From contig CAISWQ010000008.1 of the NCBI GenBank assembly GCA_903889245.1, positions 1-41,119 of the forward strand: a DNA stretch of 41,119 bases, in the 5' to 3' direction. How positions within the stretch are numbered: position 1 is the first letter of the stretch; each line of letters opens with the position of its first letter. The notes beneath the pieces were generated by a model, which was given only the letters and a program-made list of their open reading frames with translations, was not told the DNA's origin and ran no database searches. The translations under genes were made by a program, and so were the position numbers. This document shows positions 6,240 to 30,850 of the stretch, piece after piece. The DNA is from an uncultured Lentisphaerota bacterium (lineage in GTDB: Bacteria > Verrucomicrobiota > Kiritimatiellia > CAIQIC01).

Positions 6240-6351
6240 TTTTCCAGGGATGGGAGCGCCGGCGGGCCGATTTTTCCAAGGATTGGAAAACCGGGCTGGA
6301 TTTCTTTCCCAGCCTTGGAAAATTCCCGCGAGTTTGTTCCAAACCTTGGAA
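6240..6351. repeat. Palindrome array A (4 units), between divergent hoxF and nmo
   Basis: Four near-palindromic units of the form TTTTCCAAGGATTGGAAAA, centred at about 6249 (right half degenerate), 6281, 6313 and 6344, so 32, 32 and 31 bp apart. The intervening 13-15 bp are unrelated in sequence. The array lies between the hox promoter and the divergent flavoenzyme gene. Confidence 0.85.
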
Positions 6352-7981: not shown

Positions 7982-8062
7982 TTTTCCAAGCCTTGGAAAA
8001 AATCCAATGAAAAGTTCCAACCCTTGGAAAAAACACCCTTCCCTTTTTCCAAGGCTTGGAAA
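7982..8062. repeat. Palindrome array B (3 units), between convergent nmo and hisS
   Basis: Units centred at 7991, 8022 and 8054, spacing 31 and 32 bp. The first and third are nearly perfect (TTTTCCAAGCCTTGGAAAA and TTTTCCAAGGCTTGGAAA), the middle one TTCCAACCCTTGGAA. Each is flanked by T and A runs. Because both neighbours end here, the array may also help terminate transcription. Confidence 0.85.
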
Positions 8063-13076: not shown

Positions 13077-13125
13077 TTTCCAAGGCTTGGAAAAAACGGC
13101 GTTCCCGTCTCCAATCCCTGGAAAA
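13077..13125. repeat. Palindrome array C (2 units), between convergent genes
   Basis: TTTCCAAGGCTTGGAAA centred at 13085 and a weaker CTCCAATCCCTGGAA centred at 13116, 31 bp apart. The first begins two bases after the stop of the deoxyribosyltransferase-like gene. Shortest of the five arrays, same spacing rule. Confidence 0.8.
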
Positions 13126-20749: not shown

Positions 20750-20831
20750 TTTCCAAGGCTTACCTGGAAAACCAACCTGTCACTTTTCCAAGGCTTGGTA
20801 CTTTTCACGGTTTCTTTTCCAAGCCTTGGAA
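20750..20831. repeat. Palindrome array D (3 units), between parE-type toxin and hisC
   Basis: Units centred at about 20760 (TTTCCAAGGCTT, then three extra bases, then TGGAAAA), 20793 (TTTTCCAAGGCTTGG, right arm short) and 20824 (TTTTCCAAGCCTTGGAA); spacing 33 and 31 bp. The first unit carries the hisC ribosome-binding site on the minus strand, so its folding or occupancy could affect hisC translation. Confidence 0.8.
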
Positions 20832-20834
20832 CAC

Positions 20835-21098
20835 TCACTGCCGTTTCGATATCAGGCGCTCATATTCGTCATGCGCGCCGATCCAAATCCAGAGGCAGTC
20901 CTCGCCGCGCCGCAGCGCGAGCGCCCGATAGTGCAACCCGATGCGGATGGACCAGAGGTCGCCCACCTTCTTGAAGCGCAGGGAGGGATGCCCCGGATTG
21001 GTTTGCCACAGCGCAAAACATTCGCGGGCGCGCTCCTGAATGTCCGGCGGCAAGGCGGCGAGCAGCCGCCAGAATTCCGGGCGGGCGACCGAATTCAT
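20835..21098 (-). CDS. ParE/RelE-superfamily toxin
   Basis: 87 residues, type II toxin fold: MNSVARPEFWRLLAALPPDIQERARECFALWQ (helical hairpin) followed by the beta-sheet core LRFKKVGDLWSIRIGLHYRALALRRGEDCLWIWIGAHDEYERLI. The pattern 'LwsiRig.hYRal...w.wiG.HdeYerl' is typical of ParE/HigB-like toxins. Start at 21098 rather than further upstream, because the ATG overlaps the antitoxin stop by four bases (21095-21098), the usual coupling of such pairs. Whether it acts on gyrase or on mRNA cannot be told. Confidence 0.8.
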   Translation of the reverse strand: MNSVARPEFWRLLAALPPDIQERARECFALWQTNPGHPSLRFKKVGDLWSIRIGLHYRALALRRGEDCLWIWIGAHDEYERLISKRQ

Positions 21099-21295
21099 GG
21101 GCCGGGCCGGCAGCGGCCGGCCTGGTAATCCGCCTCGGCCTCCTTCACCAGATGATCCAGCCGGCCAGCCTGTGCATCCGCCTCGATCTGACGGTCCCAT
21201 TCATCGGCCATCAACTCGTCGAGCCAGGAAGAAATCGTCCAACGTTCCTCCGGCTTGAGCTTCAGAATTTCGGTTTGTAACGTTTGCACCGTCAT
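21095..21295 (-). CDS. Antitoxin of the ParE-type module
   Basis: 66 residues, strongly acidic: MTVQTLQTEILKLKPEERWTISSWLDELMADEWDRQIEADAQAGRLDHLVKEAEADYQAG. This is the 'addiction module protein' antitoxin pattern (an LxxEILKLKPEER start, then a W-D-x-Q-IE-AD-AxAGRLD segment) that wraps the cognate toxin. GAGGCGAGTC directly precedes the ATG. The stop overlaps the toxin start, forming a bicistronic unit. Confidence 0.78.
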   Translation of the reverse strand: MTVQTLQTEILKLKPEERWTISSWLDELMADEWDRQIEADAQAGRLDHLVKEAEADYQAGRCRPGP

Positions 21296-21673: not shown

Positions 21674-22972
21674 TCATTTCAGAAACCGGATTTTGGCGGA
21701 GCGGGCGTGGGCGTCGAGCTGCTCGACGCGGCCGAAGGCCTCGATCACCGGCAGCATCTCCTGCAAATCGGCGCGCGTCAGCGCAACGACGCTCGTGCGC
21801 CGCCGGAAGGTATCCACCGTCAGGCCGGCGAAGACCGCCGCCATGCCGCCGGTCGGCAGGACATGGCTCGGACCGGCAACAAAATCGCCCGCCGACTCCG
21901 GCGTCCACGGGCCAAGAAAAACCGCGCCGGCGCTGTGCGCCTTCTTCGTCCACGTCCGCGGCTCGCGCACCATGATCTCCAGATGCTCCGGCGCAAACTG
22001 GTTGCACAGCTCCATGCCCGCATCGAGCTGGTCCACGACGACGAGCAGCAGCCCCTGCTCCATCACCTTCTCGATGGCGGCGCGCCGCGAGAGCGTCTCG
22101 ATCTGCTTGGTCAGCTCCGCCTGCACCGCGCGGGCGAGCGCGTCCGACGAGGTGACGAGCAGCGCCTTCTCGTGGCCGGTGCCGTGCTCGGCCTGCGAGA
22201 GCAGGTCGGCGGCGACGGCGGCGGGATGCGCGGTGTCGTCGGCGAGGATCGCGATCTCGCTCGGTCCGGCGACGAGGTCGAGGTCCACGTGGCCATAGAC
22301 CAGCCGCTTGGCGGCGGTGACGTACGGCCCGCCGGGGCCGACGATCTTCTGCACCTTGCGGATGGTCGCCGTGCCGAACGCCAGCGCGCCGATGGCCTGC
22401 ACACCGCCGAGCTTGTAGATTTCCGTCGCGCCGGCGAGGTCGAGCGCGTAGAGCAGGAAGGGATTGACCTTGCCGTCCTTGCCCGCGGGCGTGCAGCACA
22501 CGACTTCGCGCACGTCGGCGACGCGCGCGAGCGTCGCGGTCATCAGCGCGGTCGAGGCGAGCGGCGCGGCGCCGCCGGGGATATAGCAGCCGACGCGCGC
22601 GAGCGGCGTAAACTGTTCGCCGAGCACGCCGCCCTTGGGGCTGGCGATCGTCCAGTCCTTGCGCAGGCCGGCCTTGCTGAAGGCGATGATCCGCTTGTAG
22701 GCCTCGGACGCGGAGCGCTTGAAATCGAGGTCCACCGTCTCATAGGAGGCCTTGATCTCGTCGGCGGTCACGCGCAGTTGCGCGGGCGCGAGGTCCGCGC
22801 CGTCGAACTGTTTGACGCAGCGGACGAGCGCGGCATCGCCCTCGGCGCGGATGGCGTCGAGCACCTCGCGCGCGGTCTGCTCGGCCGCGGCATCGAACGC
22901 CGGGCGGCGGAGCAGCGCATCCACCGCGGGATGCGACGCGGTCGGCGACCACCTGACAATCCTGGCTTGCAT
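21674..22972 (-). CDS. hisD: Histidinol dehydrogenase
   Basis: 432 residues, zinc enzyme making histidine from histidinol in two NAD-dependent oxidations. Seen: CYIPGGAAPLASTALMTATLARVADVREVVCCTPAG, KLGGVQAIGALAFGTATI, KIVGPGGPYVTAAKR, DLDLVAGPSEIAILADD, LLSQAEHGTGHEKALLVTS (zinc-binding Gln/His), NQFAPEHLEIMV (catalytic Glu-His) and AGAVFLGPWTPESAGDF...GPSHVLPTGG. Start ATG at 22972 with AGGA upstream; a TTG three codons earlier is too close to the same ribosome site. It follows the zinc-ribbon gene by 25 bp, so may be read from the exb-type operon. Its 3' end is duplicated beyond the DUF433 gene. Confidence 0.95.
   Translation of the reverse strand: MQARIVRWSPTASHPAVDALLRRPAFDAAAEQTAREVLDAIRAEGDAALVRCVKQFDGADLAPAQLRVTADEIKASYETVDLDFKRSASEAYKRIIAFSKAGLRKDWTIASPKGGVLGEQFTPLARVGCYIPGGAAPLASTALMTATLARVADVREVVCCTPAGKDGKVNPFLLYALDLAGATEIYKLGGVQAIGALAFGTATIRKVQKIVGPGGPYVTAAKRLVYGHVDLDLVAGPSEIAILADDTAHPAAVAADLLSQAEHGTGHEKALLVTSSDALARAVQAELTKQIETLSRRAAIEKVMEQGLLLVVVDQLDAGMELCNQFAPEHLEIMVREPRTWTKKAHSAGAVFLGPWTPESAGDFVAGPSHVLPTGGMAAVFAGLTVDTFRRRTSVVALTRADLQEMLPVIEAFGRVEQLDAHARSAKIRFLK
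21683..21707. repeat. Direct repeat, copy inside the hisD 3' end
   Basis: Second copy of the 25-bp repeat, here encoding the last residues of HisD. Offset between copies is 332 bp. Confidence 0.85.
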
Positions 22973-22997
22973 GGTGTCCAAATCCTTTCCGAAACGT

Positions 22998-23225
22998 TCA
23001 GCGGCGCAGCGCCTCGTTCATCGCGCCGCACTTGGTGCAGCGGCACAGCGGCCGCTCGCGCTGATCCGCATAGACATGACCGCAACTGGCGCAGCGATAA
23101 ATCCGCGAGCGGCGCGGTGGCAGCGGCGCGCGCAGCCGCAGGGAGTAATACAGCCAGCCGGCGAAAACCGCAACCAGCGCAAAGAACACCGGCACGAAGA
23201 AGAACACGGTGGGACTGACGATCAT
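22998..23225 (-). CDS. Small membrane protein with a C-terminal zinc ribbon
   Basis: 75 residues. One membrane helix at about residues 6-27 (TVFFFVPVFFALVAVFAGWLYY), a basic loop (RLRAPLPPRRSR), then a rubredoxin-like zinc ribbon YRCASCGHVYADQRERPLCRCTKCGAMN with two CxxC pairs. Start at 23225, where ATG overlaps the TonB-like stop by four bases. Function unknown; the coupling suggests a role with the Exb/Ton-like complex or in the cytoplasmic face of the membrane. Confidence 0.75.
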   Translation of the reverse strand: MIVSPTVFFFVPVFFALVAVFAGWLYYSLRLRAPLPPRRSRIYRCASCGHVYADQRERPLCRCTKCGAMNEALRR

Positions 23226-24010
23226 GGCGCGGCGCCCTCCGGTTTGGCCACCGGCGCCCGCGGCGCCGCGAGGTGCCGGAGGCGCACCGCGCCCTGCGCG
23301 GCGGCGGCGGCGGGCGCGAACCGCCAGCGCAGCAGCGCCTGCGTCAACTGCGCGTTGAAATCGGCCGCGGTCGAGGGTGGATCGAGGAAGACGTGCAGCA
23401 CGCGGCCCTCGCGCGCGACCTCCAGCTTGGCCACCACCTGCCAGTTGAGCGCGGTCAGCTCCGGCGGCAGCGGCGGCAGCGGCTGCTCCAGGCACGCGCG
23501 CGCAGCGAGGTCGCCGGCGACCTCACTGGTGAGCGTGTTGGTGACCGCCGGTAGTTTGGCGAAGACTGGCGCGACATCATCCACGCGGAAGTTCGCGCCA
23601 TTATTCAGCGTGGGCGGGCGCGGCGCGGGCACAACCGGCGCGAGTCCGGCGGCTGGCGGCGGCGGCATGAGTTGCGCCTCGATGTCCGGCCGTTGGACGC
23701 GCGGCCGGTCATGGCCATCGCCCGCGGCAGGCGCACGGCTGAAGCCCATCGGCGTCGGCAGCGCGAAGAGCACCGGCGACCACATCACGCGCAGGTCGCG
23801 CTGCGGCTCGCCGCCCTCCGCCGGCGCGCGGGCGGGCAGGTAGCGCGCATGCACGGCGAAGCGCGGCAGCTCGCGCGGCGCGGCGAACATCTCCGGCTGC
23901 CAGAGCAGGCCCCAGAAACCAAACCAGATCAGCGCCAGCGGCAGGGCCAGCAGCCACAGGCGGCGCAGGGTCCAGCGCGGCGCGGGCAGGCTCGCCGCCG
24001 CGGCGCTCAT
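23222..24010 (-). CDS. TonB-like energy-transducer protein
   Basis: 262 residues. Cytoplasmic basic segment, one membrane helix (about residues 19-38, LLALPLALIWFGFWGLLW), a long Pro/Ala-rich periplasmic stretch (PPPPAAGLAPVVPAPRPP), and a C-terminal alpha-beta domain (LNWQVVAKLEVAREGRVLHVFLDPPSTAADFNAQLTQALLRWRFAP) with the 'v.l.v...G.v....v..psg....d.a...a...wrf.P' TonB-C pattern. The membrane helix lacks the His of the E. coli SHLS motif. Start overlaps the exbD stop by four bases. Place in the operon fixes the assignment more than sequence does. Confidence 0.65.
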   Translation of the reverse strand: MSAAAASLPAPRWTLRRLWLLALPLALIWFGFWGLLWQPEMFAAPRELPRFAVHARYLPARAPAEGGEPQRDLRVMWSPVLFALPTPMGFSRAPAAGDGHDRPRVQRPDIEAQLMPPPPAAGLAPVVPAPRPPTLNNGANFRVDDVAPVFAKLPAVTNTLTSEVAGDLAARACLEQPLPPLPPELTALNWQVVAKLEVAREGRVLHVFLDPPSTAADFNAQLTQALLRWRFAPAAAAAQGAVRLRHLAAPRAPVAKPEGAAP

Positions 24011-24474
24011 GGCTTCACCTCGACCGGCGCGGGCAGCCGCGAGGCGATCAGCACCTGCGCGATGCCGGCGGCGCGCGCCATGTTATAGATGTTGACCAGC
24101 GTGCCGGAGCTGACGCGCGCATCGGCCTCGATGACCAGCGACGCGCCGGGCTGATCGTGCCGCGCCTGCGCGAACGCGGCGCGCAGGTCATCGAGCGCCA
24201 TCCGCGTATCGTTGAAGAAGACGAACCCTTCCTGCGAGAGCGTGACGACCAGCGCGCCGTAGGGCGCGCCCTCGTGGAACGGCGCCTCCGGCAACTGCAC
24301 CGTGACGCCCGGCTGCAGCACGAAGCGTGCGGTGACGAGGAACGCGGCCACGGCGAGCACGAGGCCGTTGAACAGCGCCGCCGGTTCGATCAGCCGGCAG
24401 ACGCGCTGGACGCGCGGCTGAAACTGGCGCTGCAAAATCGGCAGCGGCGTGGCGACGCTCGCGGCTTTCTTCAC
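24007..24474 (-). CDS. exbD: ExbD/TolR-family protein lacking the channel Asp
   Basis: 155 residues, one membrane helix (about residues 31-52) and a periplasmic domain of the ExbD/TolR type (FVLQPGVTVQLPEA... LVVTLSQEGFVFFNDTRMALDDLRAAFAQA...LVIEADARVSSGTLVNIYNMARAAGIAQVLIAS). Counting back from the conserved FVLQPG, the residue that is Asp in E. coli ExbD (D25, required for proton-driven rotation) is Asn36 here (EPAALFNGLVL). Overlaps exbB and the TonB-like gene by four bases each. The family call is secure; the motor function is in doubt. Confidence 0.8.
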   Translation of the reverse strand: MKKAASVATPLPILQRQFQPRVQRVCRLIEPAALFNGLVLAVAAFLVTARFVLQPGVTVQLPEAPFHEGAPYGALVVTLSQEGFVFFNDTRMALDDLRAAFAQARHDQPGASLVIEADARVSSGTLVNIYNMARAAGIAQVLIASRLPAPVEVKP

Positions 24475-25112
24475 GCCTTCTTCTCCTTGAGGACGGCGTC
24501 GCCCACCTTGTTCTGCGCGAAGAAATTCAGGATCTCCGCCGCCGCGCGCTCCATGTCCAGCGTCAGCGACTCGACGCGACCGACGAGCATGTTATAGCCC
24601 GCGTAGGCCGGGATCGAGACCGCGAGGCCGGCCGCGCTGACCAGCAGGGCGGCCCACAGGCCCGCGGCCAGGTCGCCGGCGTGGACCAGCGGCGCGCGCT
24701 GCTGGATGGCGAGCAACATCTGCATCAGGCCGAGGATCGTGCCCAGCAGGCCGAGCATCGGCGCGATGTGCGCGAACGTGGCGAGCAGCGAGAGGTTGCG
24801 CTCAATGCGCGGAATCTCCTGCAGGCCGGCCTCGTGCATCGCCTGCCGCATCTTCTCCGGGCCTTCGTCGTGATGCAGGATCGCGGAGCGGATGATCATC
24901 GGCACCGGGCCCGACGCCTCCTCGCACAGGCTGACGGCCTCGGCCACGTTGCCGCGCTTGAGGATGACGTAAAGCCCTTGCAGGAAATCGCGCCAGCGGA
25001 TTTGCGCGCGGTGGAGCTGGAACAGGCGTTCGAGGAAGAGCGCCGCGGCCAGCACGCCGACGACCAGCAGCACCAGCATGATCGGCCCGCCCTGACGAAT
25101 GACTTCAACCAT
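24471..25112 (-). CDS. exbB: ExbB/TolQ/MotA-family protein
   Basis: 213 residues with the three membrane segments of the family: about 10-30 (PIMLVLLVVGVLAAALFLERL), 112-140 (TFAHIAPMLGLLGTILGLMQMLLAI) and 148-172. The TM2 Thr of GLLGT (Thr125) is kept. In TM3 (GLWAALLVSAAGLAVSIPAY), alignment to E. coli ExbB places Ala154 where Glu176 is expected and Ser159 where Thr181 is expected. First gene of the exbB-exbD-tonB-zinc ribbon-(hisD) unit, preceded by 350 bp that hold palindrome array E and no gene. Confidence 0.85.
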   Translation of the reverse strand: MVEVIRQGGPIMLVLLVVGVLAAALFLERLFQLHRAQIRWRDFLQGLYVILKRGNVAEAVSLCEEASGPVPMIIRSAILHHDEGPEKMRQAMHEAGLQEIPRIERNLSLLATFAHIAPMLGLLGTILGLMQMLLAIQQRAPLVHAGDLAAGLWAALLVSAAGLAVSIPAYAGYNMLVGRVESLTLDMERAAAEILNFFAQNKVGDAVLKEKKA

Positions 25113-25461
25113 GATGAAACCCTCCGGTGATAGCGGATAGCAGATAGCGGATTACGGACGGAAGATGGTGGTTGGTGGATGGCCAAGGGCTGATGGCAGA
25201 AAAAGTTTCCAGGGATTGGAAAATGGAGGCGGTGGTTTTTCCAGGGATTGGAAAAACCGGGTGTGAAACGTTCCGAGCCTTGGAAAAAAACAGCGGACTT
25301 TTTCCAAGCCTTGGAAAAAGCGGCCGAGGTTTTTCCAAGCCTTGGAAAGCGCGCCCGCTGATGAACAGCGAACACCGAAGGCGTTCGGCGCCCGCATTCG
25401 CGGTCGCGGCACCAAGTTGTTTCCAGTACTCCAACACTCCAGCACTCCATTCTTCCATGCT
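25113..25461. other. Intergenic region: repeat words and palindrome array E
   Basis: No gene. From exbB outward: 25133-25155 (tagcggatagcagatagcgg), 25165-25195 (ggttggtggatggcc type), palindrome array 25206-25349, 25380-25460 (ccagtactccaacactcc, cagcactccattcttcc). All but the palindromes belong to the degenerate minisatellite vocabulary seen elsewhere in the window. Confidence 0.6.
25206..25349. repeat. Palindrome array E (5 units), upstream of exbB
   Basis: Five units centred at 25214, 25246, 25278, 25309 and 25340; spacings 32, 32, 31 and 31 bp. Cores: TTTCCAGGGATTGGAAAA twice, TTCCGAGCCTTGGAA, and TTTTCCAAGCCTTGGAAA twice. The 10-15 bp between them are unrelated. It is the longest and most regular array, lying between the TPR gene stop and exbB. 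Confidence 0.9.
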
Positions 25462-27987
25462 TCAAAACAGCATCCAGTGCTCCAGCTTGATGCGTTGCAG
25501 CCGCTGCAACGCCTCCTGCGCGGCGGGCACACCGGCCTCGACGACGCGCTGATAGACCTGCACCGCCTTGCGCCAATCGCCCGACTTCTCCTGGATTTCG
25601 GCGGCGTTGAACGCGGCGCGCGTGAACCAGAGCGGATCGCCGTGCTGGCCCTTGGCGCGCTCGCCAAGAAACGCGTACACGACCGCGAGGTAGCGCTCGA
25701 GCGCCTCGGCGGTCTTGCCCTGCTTCTCGAGGCAGCGGCCGACCTTGTACTCGGCCTGCCACTTCAGGTCGCGGTCGGCGGTCGGGCTATCGAGTACGCC
25801 GCGGTAGTCGCTCAACGCCTCGGCGAAGCGCTGCTTGTCCTCGTTGGCGAGCGTGAAGGCGCAGTCGCCGCGCCGGCCGCGCGCGAGGTTGGCGAGGTAG
25901 CTGTTCGGGAATTTCTTGATGACCTCATCGAAGACGAGGATCGCGTCGGCGAACTTGTTCAGCTCGCTCAAGGCGTCGCCCTGCGCGAAGCGCGTCTCGG
26001 CGAGCTTGGCGCTATCGGGGTAGAGCTTGACGAGCTGGTTGTAGTGCTCGAGCGCGTGCAGATATTGCCCGGCGGCGGCGGCGGCGCGGCCGGCCCAGAA
26101 CAGCGCCCTATCGGCGAGCTCGCTCTTGGGGTGCGCCTTGGCCAGCCCGGCGAACTGGCGCTCGGCGTCGGCGTAGGCGCCGTGGTTGAAATAATATTCG
26201 CCGAGCCAGAAGTGCACGTCGGGCGCCCAGGCGGACTGGGGATATTTGGCGAGGAAGTCGCGCGCGATCTGCAATGCCTCGGCCTCGCGGCGCATCAGGT
26301 AGAGGCACCAGCCGCGCATGTAGAACGCCTGCTCGGCGAGGCGGTCGCCGGGGACCTTCTTCAGCAAGTCATCGAACGTCGCCAGCGCCGGCTCGAACCG
26401 GCTGGTGCGGTAGAGCAGCAGGCCGCGCCCGCTCAACGCCTGCGCCTGCCACGTGGTGCCGGTGGCGACCGCGGCGGCCTGGTCATAGGCGGCGACGGCC
26501 TGGTCCCAGCGGCCCTGGTCCTCGCGCACGAGCGCGAGGCCGAGCCACGCGCGCGCGGCGTCGGCGCCGTTGGTCTGCGCGCTGGTCAGCGCCGTGAACA
26601 GCCGCTCCGCCTCCGCCGGCTGGCCGAGCCGCATCTGGCAGAGGCCGGCCTGGTAGAGCGCCTGCGCGGACTGGGCGGTGACGAGCGCGTTGGTCAGCGT
26701 CAGGTAGAGCGGCAGCGCGCGGCGGAATTGCTGCGCGGCGAACCACGAGTCCGCCTCCTTGAAACGCGCCTCGGCGATGCCAGCGGGCGAGTTGGAGGCG
26801 TCGCCCGCCTTGCCGAAGGCGTTCGCGGCCTCGTCGTAGCGGGCCAGATGCCAGAGGCACCAGCCCTTGCCCAGCAGCGCGCGGCGCTGGCCCGCGGGCT
26901 CGGCGAAGGCCTCGACGTAGGCCTGGAACTCGGCGAGCGCCGGCGCGTAGCGCTTGTGCCGGAGCAGCGACTCGGCGAGTTCGAGCTGCGCCTCGGCGGC
27001 GAGCGGGCCGGCGTGCGGTTGCTTGACGATGCCGCGCAGCGCCTGTGCGCCCTCTTCATCGCGCCCCAGCCGGAAGAGCAGTTGGCCGCGCAGCAACTCC
27101 GTCCGCAGCTTCGCCGCCGGGTCGCTGACGAGCGCAGCGGATTGCGCGAGCGCCTGCACCGCGGCGGCGAGGTTCGTCTGCGACTCGTAGAGGCGCGCCA
27201 ACTGGCCCCATGCCGTCAGGCGCAAATCGGGCCGCGCCTTGGCGCGGGCGGTCAGCGCCTTGAGCGCCTGCTCGGCCTGCGGCCACTGCTTCGCCTGGCT
27301 GTAGAGGTCGGCGAGCCGCAGCCGCGCCTGGTCGGCGAACGGGGTCTCCGGCTTGTCGGCGACGAGCTTCTCCAGCACGCCGCGCGCGGCGTCGGCGCGC
27401 TTGAGCGCGAGCAGCGCCTCGGCCCACTGCCAGAGATTTTCCGCGGCCTCCGGCGATTGCGCGGCCTTCTTCTGCACCTGCTCGAACAGCGCCAGCGCCG
27501 GCTCCGGCTGGCCTTGCTTGAGCAGCACGTTGGCCGCCAGCCGCAGCGCGCGGACAGCCTCGGGGCTGTTGGGATAGCGCGCGTCGAAGTCGCGGATCAG
27601 CACGCTGGCCTCGGCGAGCTGGCCGACCTCGAAATGCGCCAGCGCGGAGAGATAGGTCCACGTCGCCTCGTGCTCGCCGCCCCGCGCCTCGGCCTGGCAG
27701 CCGGTCAGCACGGCGCGCGCGGCGTCGGCGCGCTTGAGCGCGAGCAGCGCGCGCGCCTGCCAGAGCCGCGCCTCGGTCCGCGGCGCGGGCGCGGCGATGA
27801 GCTGCGCCGCCTGCTCGAACGTGCGCTGCGCGAGGTCATAGAAGCCATCCTCGTAGGCGGCGCGGCCGATGGTCAGCGGGTCCACCGCCACCTGCGGCGC
27901 GTTGGTCGCCACCTGCGCGCCCGCGGCTTGCGCCACGGCCAGCGCCAGCAGCGCCGCGCGCCATCTGCGTTGACAGCTTGGCGGCAT
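25462..27987 (-). CDS. Large secreted TPR-repeat protein
   Basis: 841 residues. Signal peptide MPPSCQRRWRAALLALAVAQAAGAQ, then back-to-back tetratricopeptide repeats over the whole length (for instance ARLWQARALLALKRADAARAVL, AEALLALKRADAARGVLEKL, DVHFWLGEYYFNHGAYADAERQFAGLAKAHPKSE, ALEHYNQLVKLYPDSAKLAETRFAQGDALSELNKFADAILVFDEVIKKFPNSYLA). Such periplasmic scaffolds (CpoB/YbgF, BamD-like) often accompany Tol/Exb genes, as here. Start at 27987 is one base after the uvrA stop. Inside, 27382-27417 and 27715-27750 are an identical 36-bp direct repeat, evidence of recent repeat duplication or codon-level convergence. Confidence 0.82.
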   Translation of the reverse strand: MPPSCQRRWRAALLALAVAQAAGAQVATNAPQVAVDPLTIGRAAYEDGFYDLAQRTFEQAAQLIAAPAPRTEARLWQARALLALKRADAARAVLTGCQAEARGGEHEATWTYLSALAHFEVGQLAEASVLIRDFDARYPNSPEAVRALRLAANVLLKQGQPEPALALFEQVQKKAAQSPEAAENLWQWAEALLALKRADAARGVLEKLVADKPETPFADQARLRLADLYSQAKQWPQAEQALKALTARAKARPDLRLTAWGQLARLYESQTNLAAAVQALAQSAALVSDPAAKLRTELLRGQLLFRLGRDEEGAQALRGIVKQPHAGPLAAEAQLELAESLLRHKRYAPALAEFQAYVEAFAEPAGQRRALLGKGWCLWHLARYDEAANAFGKAGDASNSPAGIAEARFKEADSWFAAQQFRRALPLYLTLTNALVTAQSAQALYQAGLCQMRLGQPAEAERLFTALTSAQTNGADAARAWLGLALVREDQGRWDQAVAAYDQAAAVATGTTWQAQALSGRGLLLYRTSRFEPALATFDDLLKKVPGDRLAEQAFYMRGWCLYLMRREAEALQIARDFLAKYPQSAWAPDVHFWLGEYYFNHGAYADAERQFAGLAKAHPKSELADRALFWAGRAAAAAGQYLHALEHYNQLVKLYPDSAKLAETRFAQGDALSELNKFADAILVFDEVIKKFPNSYLANLARGRRGDCAFTLANEDKQRFAEALSDYRGVLDSPTADRDLKWQAEYKVGRCLEKQGKTAEALERYLAVVYAFLGERAKGQHGDPLWFTRAAFNAAEIQEKSGDWRKAVQVYQRVVEAGVPAAQEALQRLQRIKLEHWMLF

Positions 27988-27988
27988 T

Positions 27989-30850
<2,862 letters not shown>

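Follow-up and report, generated by a model that had tools for sequence, protein, structure and literature searches.

The aspartate on the axle helix is regarded as the essential proton-binding residue in Ton, Tol and flagellar stator motors, and the locus described here raises the question of what an ExbB-ExbD pair may be doing when that residue is missing. The window, meaning the whole stretch of DNA that was analysed, comprises 41,119 nucleotides from an uncultured Lentisphaerota bacterium and is an entire contig of a 5.26-Mb genome, the nearest named relatives of which are MAGs with the labels Lentisphaerae, Verrucomicrobia or Kiritimatiellaeota. The genes at and around the locus are the following.

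27989-30850, minus strand: uvrA
25462-28125, minus strand: open reading frame of a TPR protein with YbgF/CpoB-like repeats (TIGR02795, 1e-53), the upstream gene of the block; it overlaps uvrA, and its true start is uncertain
24471-25112, minus strand: exbB/tolQ-like gene, 213 aa (PF01618, 1.8e-27; the nearest NCBIfam model is TolQ, 2.5e-22, below cut-off)
24007-24474, minus strand: exbD/tolR-like gene, 155 aa, GTG start, with a TM helix at residues 31-48 and a periplasmic ExbD domain (PF02472, 2.8e-13; AF2 and Foldseek)
23222-24010, minus strand: gene for a TonB-like transducer, 262 aa, with one TM helix (15-36), a disordered linker and a TonB-type C-terminal domain (TIGR01352; AF2 and Foldseek)
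21674-22981, minus strand: hisD

The exbB, exbD and TonB-like genes overlap by a few bases, and the block is best explained as encoding an ExbBD/TolQR-type complex whose partners are a TPR protein and a transducer of the TonB type. ExbB and ExbD both score above the curated Pfam cut-offs (96.1 bits versus 22.9 for PF01618 and 50.5 bits versus 25.4 for PF02472), and the ExbD model (AF2, mean pLDDT 73) consists of a TM helix and an ExbD-type periplasmic domain, matched in Foldseek to solved ExbD/TolR periplasmic domains (E 1.6e-5). The NCBIfam equivalog cut-offs are not reached (TolQ 79.7 versus 221, TolR 33.7 versus 127.3 and exbB 53.7 versus 206.2).

The transducer has the architecture of TonB, an N-terminal TM helix and a C-terminal domain, as judged by AF2 and Foldseek. 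Its AF2 model has a mean pLDDT of 64.7, rising to about 80-89 in the C-terminal domain, for which the top 13 Foldseek hits in the PDB are all TonB/FusB C-terminal domains, none of them below E 0.001; TonB C-terminal sequence models match below cut-off only (TIGR01352 tonB_Cterm, 6.7e-4). The TM helix, LRRLWLLALPLALIWFGFWGLL, contains no histidine, and the membrane histidine of the TonB SHLS motif is thus absent, as the preliminary description had noted. One further element lies soon after the TM helix.

23735-23797, minus strand: motif DLRVMWSPVLFALPTPMGFSR, conserved in relatives with and without the axle aspartate

This motif has a form like W(S/T)P..F.L.TP.GFS and is covered by no Pfam family.

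Like the ExbB-ExbD-TonB system, the block has the threonine sites of ExbB TM2 and TM3, an ExbD with a TM helix and periplasmic domain, and an adjoining gene for a TonB-type C-terminal domain; unlike that system, it lacks the aspartate at the D25 site and the TonB membrane histidine, is variable at the E176 site and includes a TPR gene. The motor proteins are nearest to the models of the Tol-Pal system, TolQ-TolR-TolA (2.5e-22 for ExbB with TolQ and 4.9e-8 for ExbD with TolR), and the TPR repeats are YbgF/CpoB-like. However, the motor scores remain below cut-off, the neighbours are uvrA and hisD, the transducer domain is of the TonB type, and the aspartate is missing. Loci in the PVC group that combine a TPR gene, a tolQ-like gene, paired tolR-like genes and a vWA gene (PMC12204202) share the TPR and tolQ/tolR-like genes with the window, which has only one tolR-like gene and whose transducer is of the TonB type, not vWA; the conserved histidine carried by the vWA transducers (PMC12204202) is absent from its transducer. 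In GldL-GldM, the type IX secretion motor, also a 5:2 motor, the key acid lies off the MotB/ExbD aspartate site (PMC8986121), but it is an essential TM glutamate of GldL, Glu49 (PMC8986121), and the ExbB of the window has no such acid.

Two positions in ExbD are relevant to the axle.

24385-24387, minus strand: ExbD Glu30, site -6, at the cytoplasmic helix end; the nearest acidic residue, unlinked to loss of the aspartate
24367-24369, minus strand: ExbD Asn36 (codon AAC), at the site of E. coli ExbD D25 and TolR D23 (profile alignment, with the codon read directly)

An alignment by eye had placed Asn36 opposite E. coli D25, and this is confirmed: with an HMM built from 27 relatives, position 36 falls on D25 of E. 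coli ExbD (6TYI), ungapped around the site. The TM helix therefore carries asparagine where proton-driven ExbBD/TolQR/MotAB motors carry aspartate. An alignment shift concealing an aspartate is ruled out by the acid-free columns beside the site in 117 relatives, among which the aspartate itself is the sole ionisable residue in ExbD columns -5 to +8. Deamidation of an Asn-Gly pair to aspartate is not a general route, as glycine follows in part of the genus only (alanine in L050, valine in L018).

The distribution of this change was surveyed in one phylum, Verrucomicrobiota, covering the order and then a sample over the class and phylum. The TPR-exbB-exbD-TonB-like block recurs throughout the sample; exbB is preceded by the TPR gene in 108 of 126 loci, and a TonB-like open reading frame with an N-terminal TM helix follows exbD in nearly all. 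Relatives share the loss: the axle site of 117 sampled subfamily ExbD proteins is D in 56, N in 52, S in 4, A in 3, T in 1 and G in 1, so that 61 are without aspartate. In the window's own family all five usable ExbD proteins have asparagine, and the subfamily occurs in 24 of the 28 genomes of the order, with N at the site except for one T and one A. Each genome of the order has 3-8 ExbD genes. Because aspartate is kept in 40 of 40 other ExbD paralogs sampled from same-order genomes, picked blind to the residue, and in all six other ExbD proteins of the window's genome, its loss is a property of the subfamily, not of the organism nor of MAG errors. As to a second canonical exb/tol set, the genome has four other ExbB/ExbD sets, all with Asp-bearing ExbD; only two of the four ExbB proteins retain glutamate at the E176 site. 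Four TonB-dependent receptor plug domains are encoded elsewhere in the genome, and these other sets could serve its TonB-dependent receptors. No earlier report of an ExbD or TolR without the aspartate was found in the open-access literature.

The loss has occurred repeatedly. A first tree, from concatenated ExbB and ExbD with the trait columns removed, requires no fewer than 24 switches between aspartate and other residues, and a second, more careful tree (103 rows) gives 23; well-supported independent contrasts number 12 in the first and 14 in the second, and 12-14 is the safe figure, since the trees behind these numbers are gene trees built from short proteins. Under equal-cost parsimony with an Asp root there are 22 D>N, 2 D>A, 2 D>S and 1 D>G changes and no regain. 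Since D>N and D>G are each a single transition, their ratio of 22:1 (binomial p 6e-6 against 1:1) argues for selection for asparagine rather than simple decay; the favoured side chain at the axle is polar, Asp-shaped and neutral. Within the genus, dN/dS ranges over 0.11-0.15 in ExbB and 0.11-0.20 in ExbD; the TonB-like gene has 0.16-0.36. The block genes are under purifying selection, and the dN/dS values reject a pseudogene.

The pore residues of ExbB, placed by profile and codon, are as follows.

24738-24740, minus strand: Thr125 (ACG), E. coli T148, retained
24672-24674, minus strand: Asp147, seven residues (two helix turns periplasm-ward) before the E176 site; Asp-type and non-Asp relatives alike have an acid here, 101 of the 117 in all
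24651-24653, minus strand: Ala154 (GCC), at the E. coli E176 site
24636-24638, minus strand: Ser159 (AGC), at the E. coli T181 site

The preliminary description had assigned Ala154, Ser159 and Thr125 correctly; position 154 falls on E176 of E. coli ExbB, and the alignment is gap-free as far as T181. Reading the two substitutions as losses is less secure, since the E176 site is variable across the subfamily and serine at the T181 site retains the hydroxyl, so that both pore hydroxyls are present (Thr125 and Ser159). Of the 56 Asp-type ExbB proteins, 8 have glutamate at the E176 site, as do 2 of the 61 non-Asp ones. Because this glutamate is rare regardless of the aspartate, and because recent work on TolQR, ExbBD and MotAB names the aspartate (D25) and two threonines (T148, T181), not the E176 glutamate, as proton-transport residues (PMC12965293), the E176 change should not count as a lost proton residue in this subfamily. 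The view that both acidic residues were lost together in one operon is thus not supported: it is right for the aspartate, but glutamate at the E176 site is not characteristic of the subfamily. Among the absences of aspartate, E176 glutamate and transducer histidine, only the first is informative.

T148 is kept in 56 of 56 Asp-type and 56 of 60 scorable non-Asp ExbB proteins (the remaining one, L018, is truncated short of this site), and T181 is present as T or S in 56 of 56 and 54 of 61; the pore is therefore maintained in the non-Asp group. Raw Fisher tests for relaxation of the threonine ring give p 0.013 for T181 as T/S and 0.058 for T148, with the truncated L018 counted as a loss, and the transducer histidine shows a raw trend of the same kind (present in 29 of 53 Asp-bearing loci, missing in 24, versus 12 of 59 non-Asp loci). 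These trends would fit a loosened coupling, but neither relaxation at T148 or T181 on independent pairs nor co-loss of the histidine on independent branches is supported. In L118, L133, L134 and L153, a non-Asp ExbD accompanies an ExbB with A or S in place of Thr148, and these pores are possibly further decayed.

The absence of a compensating acidic residue in the channel held across the 117 relatives, as judged from aligned columns. No column of the ExbB TM2/TM3 core gains an ionisable residue in the non-Asp group, and the mid-membrane columns of the window's ExbB and ExbD contain no other one. Many members have an acid at the positions of ExbD Glu30 (-6) and ExbB Asp147 (seven before E176), equally with and without the aspartate, and ExbD +9 is a histidine in 7 members, which belong to another family; the window has none there. 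Neither the TM core nor ExbD -6, ExbB -7 or the E176 site shows an ionisable residue tied to loss of the aspartate.

The aspartate has been lost recurrently, without replacement, from genes that remain under purifying selection and keep their partners. Because it is absent and unreplaced, the change is shared by relatives, and four Asp-bearing sets are present elsewhere in the genome, the leading reading of the sequences is the one first proposed, either a structural complex or a motor that departs from the usual proton drive. There is about an even chance that the block encodes an ExbBD/TolQR-type 5:2 complex of a paralogous subfamily that no longer requires proton binding at the axle. Asparagine (or Ser, Ala, Thr or Gly) would leave the axle permanently neutral, like a protonated aspartate; pentamer and dimer would presumably still assemble round the threonine ring, and the complex would hold the transducer across the envelope, where its role is likely to lie. 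It would run no proton cycle, acting as a static scaffold or as an undriven, passively rotating element, and the sister sets in the same cell would stay proton-driven. MotB D22N is used to imitate the protonated state, and the turnstile model for 5:2 motors has rotation gated by the charge at the axle site (PMC9389320). In that scheme, an asparagine dimer would be permanently doubly neutral; one version has such a dimer locked, whereas the other lets it turn freely without drive. Since close sisters differ, some having Asp and others Asn, the task of the subfamily may have no strong need of proton cycling. The Asp-bearing members, roughly half of the subfamily and with similar partners, may at least themselves be ordinary motors.

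Given a pore that is intact in other respects, the simplest reading is an assembled, maintained, proton-uncoupled complex holding a TonB-type transducer, probably a scaffold or uncoupled rotor, or one driven some other way. It is slightly more likely than not that these proteins form either a widespread 5:2 class in which proton coupling was lost many times independently while a function, that of a scaffold or a rotor with a neutral axle, was kept, or an ion-driven motor needing no ionisable axle residue.

As a counterpoint, the strong retention of the threonine ring and of asparagine could mean that the site is still doing ion chemistry. It is conceivable, if unlikely, that the complex is still ion-driven by another route, in which protons or some other ion pass by way of the Asn-Thr site and water, or coupling falls to flanking acids, ExbB Asp147 near the periplasmic mouth and ExbD Glu30 at the cytoplasmic mouth. 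The near invariance of Thr148, the strong preference for Asn among losses and the acidic residue at position 147 in 101 of 117 members are consistent with such a motor, as is GldLM, where the coupling acid can occupy the outer subunit (GldL E49, PMC8986121). However, Asp147 and Glu30 are equally frequent in Asp-bearing members and neither shifts with loss of the aspartate, the mid-membrane columns are without an ionisable residue, and ExbD D25N is reported to be inactive in E. coli (PMC11658791). It is improbable that the N-type ExbD dimerises with an Asp-bearing one encoded elsewhere in the genome, giving one binding site per motor; although genomes of the order have 3-8 ExbD genes, and paired, unlike tolR genes are known from PVC motor loci (PMC12204202), each sampled block locus has one exbD that matches the subfamily profile and adjoins its own exbB, and the same-genome paralogs, divergent in sequence, lie in operons with their own exbB. 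A decaying, function-poor paralog with a drifting aspartate, already disfavoured above, is very improbable: the many losses and the absence of Thr148 from 4 of 60 scorable non-Asp versus 0 of 56 Asp members would suit it, but dN/dS of 0.11-0.20, a block intact in 108 of 126 loci, a subfamily found in most genomes of the order (24 of 28) and the strong preference for asparagine speak against it.

Whether proton-uncoupled, as preferred here, or driven otherwise, a conserved subfamily that has dropped the axle aspartate at least a dozen times is a ready experiment on the role of this residue. Natural sister pairs that differ at the axle site (for example L094/L095, L098/L100, L130/L156 and L166/L173) could show which steps survive without it: assembly, transducer engagement or force production. 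Annotation as "biopolymer transport protein ExbD/TolR" is not proof of a working proton motor.

The surroundings of the block contain other small features. A 74-aa open reading frame (22998-23222, minus strand) between the TonB-like gene and hisD, conserved in the genus, encodes one TM helix and a four-cysteine, zinc-ribbon-like end, and an open reading frame with a ParE-like toxin domain (PF24732, 5.5e-8; 20835-21200) is flanked by a hisC-like gene and hisD. The palindrome TTCCARNNNYTGGAAAA has 14 strand hits in the window versus 0 in shuffles, and 1128 forward and 1112 reverse hits genome-wide, where a reversed control pattern has 0 and 1. It forms arrays with a spacing of 31-32 nt, one of which separates the TPR gene from exbB (25206-25349); the other positions in the window are 6272-6290, 7982-8061, 13078-13094 and 20815-20831.
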